From the NCBI GenBank assembly GCA_902596515.1, contig CACJUF010000005.1, positions 1-64,000 of the forward strand: a stretch of DNA of 64,000 nucleotides, given 5' to 3'. The notes below the pieces were generated by a model. It saw nothing but the letters and a program-made list of their open reading frames with translations, ran no database searches and was not told the DNA's origin. Positions 24,414 to 49,221 of the stretch are shown here, piece after piece. The stretch comes from an uncultured Pelagibacteraceae bacterium. GTDB taxonomy: Bacteria > Pseudomonadota > Alphaproteobacteria > Pelagibacterales > Pelagibacteraceae. Numbering within the stretch: position 1 is the stretch's first letter; each line of letters opens with the position of its first letter. The translations under genes were made by a program, and so were the position numbers.

Positions 24414-24494
24414 TACATACAATTTATAGTTTAAATGAGCAAATTTGAATAATTTATTTCATAAATTTTTGATGGTTAGAATTAAGAAAAGTTT

Positions 24495-24848
24495 GCCAGA
24501 TAAACTATAAGCCGGGTTCTGTCATTTAAACCTATCATTTCTCTAGGTTTGAAATCACTTCCAAACTCAAGCGACTAACCCAGGTGACTAGCCAAGGATG
24601 GCTTTTAGTTTTTCAACAATGTCACCTCTACTTAGTCTTGCTCCCAGTGGGGTTTTCCAGCGTTCATTGTTACCAATAGAACCGGTGTGCTCTTACCACA
24701 CCTTTTCACCCTTGCCATGTTATGGCGGTTTATTTTCTGTGGCACTATCCCTAGGGTTGCCCCCGCCAGGTATTACCTGGCACTGTATCCTTGCGGAGCC
24801 CGGACTTTCCTCTTTAATTGCTTAAAGCGATAAGTCGTTTATCTGGCT
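24495..24848 (-). ncRNA. rnpB: RNase P RNA (bacterial type A)
   Basis: Catalytic RNA of RNase P, which matures tRNA 5' ends. On the minus strand the ends pair (GCCAGATAAAC with GTTTATCTGGC, helix P1). The two universal core segments are present: AGAGGAAAGTCCGGGCTCC near the 5' end and ACAGAACCCGGCTTATAG near the 3' end. Between them lie GGGGGCAACCCTAGGGATAGTGCCACAGAAA and GGTGAAAAGGTGTGGTAAGAGCACACCGG, typical of type A. The 75-aa plus-strand ORF at 24598-24825 is a shadow of this RNA. Confidence 0.97.
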
Positions 24849-47310: not shown

Positions 47311-47385
47311 TGGTGGGCCGTGTTGGTTACGCTCCAACTACCCCTGCAATGTCAATGCAGTACTCTACTATTGAGCTAACGGCCC
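47311..47385 (-). tRNA. tRNA-Val (GAC) with unusual D- and T-loops
   Basis: A 75-nt cloverleaf with encoded CCA: acceptor GGGCCGT/ACGGCCC, D stem GCTC/GAGT, anticodon stem CTGCA/TGCAG, loop TTGACAT (anticodon GAC), T stem GTTGG/CCAAC. The T-loop is AGCGTAA rather than TTCRANT, and the D-loop is AATAGTA without the GG pair that normally contacts the T-loop. All stems are intact, so it is probably expressed but structurally atypical. Confidence 0.85.
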
Positions 47386-47394
47386 CCTAATGAA

Positions 47395-49221
47395 TTAACT
47401 TTCTAAAAAGCTTTTTAGTTGTTTTGATCTACTAGGATGTTTTAGCTTTCTAAGAGCTTTAGCTTCAATCTGTCGAATTCTCTCTCTTGTCACAGAAAAC
47501 TGTAATCCTACTTCTTCTAAGGTGTGGTCAGTATTCATTCCAACTCCAAACCTCATTCTTAAAACTCTTTCTTCTCTTGGTGTTAAAGTCGATAATATTT
47601 TAGTTGTTGCCTCACCTAAATTAGATTTAATCGCCTGCTCTAATGGAGCCAAAGCTTTTGTATCTTCAATAAAGTCGCCTAAACTGCTATCTTCTTCATC
47701 TCCAACTGGTTTTTCTAAAGAAACAGGCTCTTTTGAGATTTTTAAAACTTTTCTTACCTTATCCAAAGGCATGCGAAGTTTTTTTGCTAATTCCTCTGGA
47801 GTTGCCTCTCTGCCAAATTCACTAAGGATTAATCTCTGTGTTCTTACAATTTTATTAATTGTTTCAATCATGTGAACTGGAATTCTAATTGTTCTTGCCT
47901 GATCAGCAATTGATCTTGTAATAGCTTGTCTTATCCACCATGTTGCATAAGTCGAAAATTTATAACCTCTTCGATATTCAAACTTATCAACTGCCTTCAT
48001 TAATCCGATATTCCCTTCCTGAATTAAATCTAAAAATTGAAGACCTCTGTTCGTATATTTTTTTGCAATAGAAATCACGAGCCTTAGATTGGCTTCTACC
48101 ATTTCTTTTTTAGCAATCCTAGACTCTTTCTCCCCTTTTTGAACTCTGCTTACTAACTTTTTAAAGTCAGTTACCGACATTCCGAGTTTATGACTAATTT
48201 CAATTAATCTTTCTCTTATATTTCTAAATTCTTCTTTATTTTTACTAAAAAATTGTTTCCATAATGAATTAGAATCTAAAAACTTTTTCAAATTAGGATT
48301 AATTTCATTTCCTATATAAAACTTAATAAATTCATTTCGAGGTATTTTTTGATCCATCGCAAGCCTTAAAAGATTTCCCTCTAAAGAAATGATTTTTTTA
48401 TTTTCAACATAATGTTTTTGTACAAGTTCCTCTAATACTGATGGGGATAATTGCAAAGATTTAATATTTTCCAAAATATCATTTACAATTTTTGTGTATC
48501 CTTTTTCTTTTGATGGAGAAAAAGTTTGTGAATTAAGAACACAATCTAGTTTCTCTTTTTGATATTTTATTAACTTACGATATTCTTTTGTAAGTATATG
48601 AACAGTTTGTAAAATTTTTGGTTTAATTTCGGACTCCATTGCTGCAAGTGTAGGATTAAAATCATCATCACTTTCATCATTAGAATTATCCTCTTTCTCA
48701 TCTTCTCCAGCATTTTTTTGTTTTGCGCTAGGACCTGTATTTTCATCCTCCATATAATTTGTGTCAATATCAATAATTTCTCTGACTAATATCTCATCCT
48801 TTTGTAATTTTTCATCCCATTCAAATAATTGTTGTGCAGTAATAGGACTTTGAGATAAAGCAATTAACATTACATCTTTTCCAGCTTCAATTCTTTTTGC
48901 GATTGCAATTTCACCTTCTCTAGAAAGTAATTCAACACCACCCATCTCTCTTAAATACATTCTAATTGGGTCGTCACTTTTTTCGATCGTTTTGCCCTCT
49001 TCTTTAGAGGAATTTTCTTTTTTTCTTAAGACTTTAAAGTCTGACTTTTTTTCGACTAATACTATTCCCTCATTTAATATATGAATAAAAGCTTGTGATA
49101 AATTTTCATCTGATAGATTTCTCTTACCAAGAGATTTGCTTAATTCCTCGTGAGTAATAAAACCTCTATGAGTCCCTCGACCCATTAATCTAGCAAATGA
49201 TTTAGTAATAATTCTTTCCAC
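47395..49221 (-). CDS. rpoD: RNA polymerase primary sigma factor RpoD (sigma-70)
   Basis: Housekeeping sigma factor, 608 aa. Region 1.1 is N-terminal. Region 1.2 has [23 protein letters not shown], followed by a non-conserved acidic insert ([17 protein letters not shown]). Regions 2.1-2.4 contain [61 protein letters not shown]. Regions 3 and 4 end in [27 protein letters not shown]. dnaG lies upstream on the same strand, giving a yqeY-dnaG-rpoD macromolecular-synthesis cluster. Confidence 0.98.

Follow-up and report, generated by a model that had tools for sequence, protein, structure and literature searches.

A putatively recoded elbow in a tRNA-Val(GAC) of Pelagibacteraceae and its recurrence in cellular and phage tRNAs

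The canonical tRNA elbow is built from the contacts G18·Ψ55, G19-C56 and T54·A58 (PMC7912444, PMC4810234), and RNase P and the ribosome are among the partners that recognise its outer surface (PMC4810234). Departures from this arrangement are found in the eukaryotic initiator tRNA-Met, which carries A54·A58 (PMC7912444), and in tRNA-Pyl and type II mitochondrial tRNAs, which possess neither the GG nor the TΨC motif (PMC7609411). The G18·Ψ55 and T54·A58 contacts, together with the enzymes that modify them, are treated as near-universal. Here we describe a tRNA-Val(GAC) encoded in a stretch of 64,000 nucleotides (hereafter the window; 28% GC) from an uncultured Pelagibacteraceae bacterium. It resembles the canonical elbow in its four stems, 7-nt T-loop, G19-C56, R57 and G53-C61, and in that covariation among related tRNAs maps to the 18-55 and 19-56 contacts. 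Unlike the canonical elbow, it has A/G at 18/55 and A/U at 54/58, and offers no target to TruB, TrmA/TrmFO or TrmH (Gm18).

The tRNA-Val(GAC) gene and its elbow

Both ARAGORN and Rfam RF00005 call positions 47311-47385 on the minus strand as tRNA-Val(GAC) with an encoded CCA (47311-47313). The Rfam score of 53.6 bits, compared with 72.7 bits for the window's tRNA-Met, exceeds the gathering cut-off of 29. Read 5′ to 3′ with the D- and T-loops in brackets, the tRNA is GGGCCGT TA GCTC [AATAGTA] GAGT A CTGCA TTGACAT TGCAG GGGTA GTTGG [AGCGTAA] CCAAC ACGGCCC A CCA. Its minimum-energy fold is the full cloverleaf (z = -3.7), with full arms and with all stems and the CCA intact, and the elongator tRNA features U8, A14, U33, G53-C61, C56 and the 3′ CCA are all present. 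The anticodon GAC (47351-47353) is expected to decode GUU/GUC, which make up 55% of valine codons in the window's open reading frames; the genome also contains a tRNA-Val(UAC), the presence of which had been proposed as a check, and its elbow is normal. The variable loop GGGTA (47339-47343), including A48, is the same in the normal-elbow ortholog of a congener, G082. Directly upstream lies rpoD (47395-49221, minus strand; Pfam sigma-70 regions 1.1-4), a neighbour that tblastn synteny shows to be kept in congeners of either elbow type. Elsewhere, the window encodes a complete class A RNase P RNA (24492-24846, minus strand, 296.8 bits), which includes the T-loop-reading region.

The elbow changes are G18>A, T54>A, T55>G and A58>T, with G19, C56, G57 and G53-C61 kept. 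By direct reading and pattern match, the D-loop AATAGTA (47366-47372) comprises U16 (47370), A18 (47369, normally G) and the retained G19 (47368), and its sole difference from the loop of the same genome's tRNA-Gly(TCC), AATGGTA, is the G18 to A change. The T-loop AGCGTAA (47327-47333), read in the same two ways, comprises A54 (47333), G55 (47332), the retained C56 (47331) and G57 (47330), U58 (47329), A59 (47328) and A60 (47327). A18 and G55 thus occupy the places of the canonical G18 and U55, A54 and U58 those of the reverse-Hoogsteen pair U54-A58, and both bases of G19-C56 are there. The lack of D/T-loop contact and the reduced arms of type II mitochondrial-like tRNAs are not features of Val(GAC).

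The original prediction for this locus had stated that T54, T55 and A58 are all changed, which direct reading bears out. It had also described a D-loop lacking GG and a contact lost on its D-loop and its T-loop side. There is indeed no GG, but only G18 is altered and G19 is there; the supposed two-sided loss does not stand, with G19 and C56 kept and 18/55 replaced instead. The stems and CCA are intact as it reported, although the stems number four and not five. With G19 and C56, R57 and G53-C61 all present, the outer pair G19-C56 remains able to form, and we would describe the D/T contact as recoded in its inner layers rather than lost.

The first search alone recovered an identical gene in 20 other congeneric assemblies, which excludes a sequencing error, and found the gene at 99-100% identity in 22 of 36 other congeneric genomes. 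Over the 27 congeneric genomes with the swapped form, the tRNA body is 99.5% identical beside flanks (40 bp upstream and 60 bp downstream) that are 36-38% identical, the level of shuffled sequence, and this pattern rules out decay. Where the stems vary, the changes are compensatory and neither loop is affected, e.g., CCTCG/CGAGG in the anticodon stem and GTAGG/CCTAC in the T-stem. Natural variation within the loops occurs at position 57 (G or A), at position 20 and as an extra base after 20; among the variants read, none falls at 16, 18, 19, 54-56 or 58-60.

The same loops on other tRNAs

The D- and T-loops of Val(GAC) recur exactly on the tRNA-His(GTG) of the same genome, a gene that ARAGORN does not call. 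In G062, a congener whose genome is 99% complete in a single contig, the tRNA set contains one His (swapped), one Phe and one Val(GAC), and the sole tRNA-Phe is half-swapped, with A18/G55 and a retained U54-A58. At locus L029 (G000:C18), a tRNA-Phe (872-946; A18/G55, T54-A58 kept) and a fully swapped tRNA-His (about 1501-1571) lie ~0.6 kb apart. Across the order, the D/T pair pattern matches 194 of 297 genomes, whereas a reversed-pattern control gives almost no matches. Further afield, family f2 carries the pair on another tRNA, Thr(GGT), likewise not called by ARAGORN; the only further family with the T-loop pattern in a class-wide search, f10 (four genomes), has it on Thr(GGT) again. A CPR tRNA-His on chromosome L212, with a ribosomal protein L19 gene nearby, has identical D- and T-loops. 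In another genus (g7), the exact Val form of the window's genus occurs near a contig end (G131:C26:401-447), which reflects either transfer or binning contamination.

Parsing of 108 tRNAs from five genomes gave 101 with G18/T55/T54-A58, four with A18/G55/A54-T58, three with A18/G55/T54-A58 and none with a mixed 18/55 state. A18 and G55 therefore occur together and not singly, in 7 of the 7 cellular tRNAs with either base and in 63 of 65 in the phage set described below. Judging from the three half-swapped tRNAs, two of them Phe and the third His, A18/G55 may arise before the change at 54/58. A link of the swap to G34 anticodons, as seen in the bacterial GAC, GTG, GGT and GAA, was considered and rejected, since phage cases include TTG, TTT, TAC, CAT, TCC and CTA.

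Phage tRNAs carry this elbow widely. The exact D/T pair is found in at least 120 IMG/VR contigs; among the matches listed, including four contigs of an earlier scan, 81 of 91 parsed viral matches are complete cloverleaves with 18 different anticodons, while about nine failed the cloverleaf parser, several of which resemble tRNAs with a weak stem. With the T-loop AGCGTAA fixed and the D-loop left free, we obtained 164 distinct viral tRNAs, which cover 17 amino acids and an amber type; in 163 of them, the D-loop shows A followed by G at positions 18-19, a placement that is partly a guess in D-loops longer than 7 nt and unambiguous in the 7-nt set alone. The exact-pair and fixed-T-loop scans combined place the swapped elbow on phage tRNAs for at least 18 amino acids. 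A carrier is also present in a cultured phage, as the annotated tRNA-Met of Acinetobacter phage Ac42, and a phage tRNA with the amber suppressor-type anticodon CTA (L251) has the same swapped elbow.

When the D-arm with A18 is fixed, G55 is present in 56 of 58 distinct viral tRNAs, the exceptions being one parsing error and one C55; the matching D-arm with G18 gives T55 in 97 of 106, C55 in nine and G55 in none. A structural scan of 342 phage tRNAs with 7-nt D-loops, in which no loop base was fixed and pattern-matching tRNAs were removed, yielded 18/55 states of G/T in 269, A/G in 63 and others in 10 (G/C in seven, and A/T, G/G and T/T in one each); the Fisher p of 8e-67 is nominal, as the phage sequences are related to each other, which inflates covariation. 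The loci themselves derive from pattern scans. In these phage tRNAs, the highest mutual information between the D- and T-loops is at 18-55, followed among direct pairs by 19-56; positions 54 and 58 also covary, mainly as U·A, A·U and G·G, and within the A18 class the peak is at 16-59 (U-A, A-U, C-C). As 18-55, 19-56 and 54-58 are elbow contacts in crystal structures (PMC7912444), the covariation agrees position by position with the known fold. The prediction that the changes are coordinated and not random decay is upheld by the exact recurrence in other tRNAs and the near-perfect 18-55 covariation, and its suggestion that the elbow is stabilised differently is supported for the 18·55 and 54·58 layers.

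Two further variants were seen among phage tRNAs. In twelve, A19 with T56 replaces G19-C56, a second covarying elbow change. Where the T-loop is ATCGTNN, nearly every D-loop retains GG, and the 54·58 swap is thus possible without A18/G55.

A proposed elbow and its alternatives

We regard it as very probable, judging from conservation and covariation, that Val(GAC) is a functional, selectively maintained tRNA whose elbow has been recoded, and the alternative elbow is likely built on an A18·G55 pair plus a changed 54·58 pair. We propose the following arrangement. In a normal elbow, G18·Ψ55 and the reverse-Hoogsteen U54·A58 lie under an exposed G19-C56. A18 would take the place of G18 between layers 57 and 58 and pair with G55, A54·U58 would replace U54·A58, and U16/A59 would probably add a further D-T contact. 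With G19-C56, R57 and G53-C61 kept, the exposed surface that RNase P and the ribosome recognise could persist. We infer from the covariation that A18 and G55 would touch in three dimensions, and also infer the hydrogen-bond geometry of A18·G55 and the charging and normal translation of Val(GAC). An antiparallel kissing of U20 with G55 was rejected, as position 20 varies freely (AATAGAA, AATAGCA, AATAGGA). A point against the recoded elbow is that, in E. coli tRNA-Leu at least, mutation of G18:U55, G19-C56 or U54:A58 is harmful (review PMC9976931).

More broadly, these patterns could represent a second self-consistent elbow code in nature, with A18·G55 in place of G18·Ψ55, a 54·58 pair of U·A, A·U or G·G, and a covarying 16·59. 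Such a code would have evolved repeatedly, chiefly among phage tRNAs and streamlined or reduced bacteria, would need none of the host modifications T54, Ψ55 and Gm18, and might evade nucleases or other enzymes that recognise these; we consider the case for this wider proposal to be evenly balanced.

The elbow of Val(GAC) cannot carry m5U54, Ψ55 or Gm18 and is therefore presumably independent of these modifications. An alternative, doubtful in our view, is that loss of TruB (and also of TrmFO/TrmA) relaxed the constraint on the elbow, and that A18/G55 is simply a neutral state reached by drift. Within the order, 49 of 147 genomes, spread over seven of the ten genera, have the Ψ55 synthase TruB, which was not found in any sampled member of the window's genus (including G000, G012 and G062). 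None of the seven genomes tested has a TrmFO above cut-off, and the TrmA-family Pfam has no match in these save one weak partial in G078; the window's genome has neither a TrmFO above cut-off nor a TrmA-family match. The tRNA-Phe, moreover, carries A18/G55 both in the window's genus and in the genus g8, for which no TruB match is listed, and normal in the TruB-bearing G061 and G037. TruB absence accordingly fits a relaxed need for U55. However, A18/G55 tRNAs also occur in TruB-bearing genomes (Thr(GGT) in f2 and f10, His in G061), so that TruB loss is not required and a strict dependence of the swap on it can be rejected, and drift alone would not reach the same multi-site solution every time.

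An origin of the elbow in phage tRNAs, imported by recombination or whole-gene transfer, appears unlikely, although the distribution of alleles lends it some weight. In two members of the window's genus, G081 and G082, the tRNA-Val(GAC) that follows rpoD shares the acceptor stem but has a normal elbow (ACYGGTTA/TTCRATT). With these genes orthologous and rpoD-linked, the bases switched in concert within one gene, and no Val allele among those read has a mixed 18/55 state. G081 and G082 occupy separate places among swapped-elbow genomes in the rpoD tree, and the whole set of bases would thus have switched more than once or been exchanged by recombination; the separate normal alleles of G081 (L718) and G082 (L717) look like allele exchange, as phage import would give. 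Also in favour of import, one identical pattern has 66 matches in IMG/VR vs 4 loci in 84,980 cell genomes, although this ratio is uninformative on SAR11, whose Val, His and Thr forms the pattern was designed not to match. Two of the four cellular loci are on phage contigs (L213, L215), one is the CPR chromosome L212, and the fourth, in Alistipes (L214), was set aside as due to chance and not a carrier. Against import, no phage record in INPHARED matches the SAR11 Val gene or is its direct relative, and swapped and normal alleles share acceptor stem and synteny.

Altered elbows can reduce the use of a tRNA by the translation machinery, and Val(GAC) might on that ground be specialised for a non-translational role (regulation, or cell-wall or lipid aminoacylation), like some Gram-positive tRNA-Gly. 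This is very improbable, as the only tRNA-His has the same elbow, the only tRNA-Phe has A18/G55, and the swap spans 18 amino acids in phages. That the gene is instead a decaying or pseudo-tRNA, or an assembly error, is scarcely credible: its lower Rfam score and the coexisting normal Val(UAC) are outweighed by a sequence that is almost the same in 27 genomes while its flanks are randomised, by compensated stem variants, and by the full swap in the sole tRNA-His and half swap in the sole tRNA-Phe.

Significance and relation to known elbows

No description of an A18/G55 elbow was found in the openly licensed papers searched. A natural alternative that covaries and is carried by essential tRNAs would separate the required parts of the elbow (G19-C56, R57, G53-C61) from those exchangeable as a set, and the role of T54/Ψ55 becomes testable with natural matched pairs, such as the Val of G082 and that of G000. 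The swapped elbow would also explain why tRNA genes have been overlooked in annotation, as ARAGORN did with tRNA-His and the f2 tRNA-Thr, and suggests one reason for phages to carry tRNAs of their own.

One natural parallel is the eukaryotic initiator tRNA-Met, in which G18 and U55 are kept. It shares with Val(GAC) an A at position 54 and a changed 54·58 pair, but retains A58. Val(GAC) is like tRNA-Pyl and the type II mitochondrial tRNAs in having neither GG nor TΨC; these, however, have reduced D-loops or no D/T contact and have lost G19/C56, whereas Val(GAC) is a standard cloverleaf that keeps both bases. Suppressor tRNAs selected in vivo from randomised D- and T-loops in the Steinberg laboratory reportedly demonstrate that alternative combinations can function. 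They share with Val(GAC) the use of alternative D/T loops, and may include similar combinations, but are artificial selections. That a matched swap recurs on further tRNAs of SAR11-type bacteria and on numerous phage tRNAs points to a second functional way of building the elbow.
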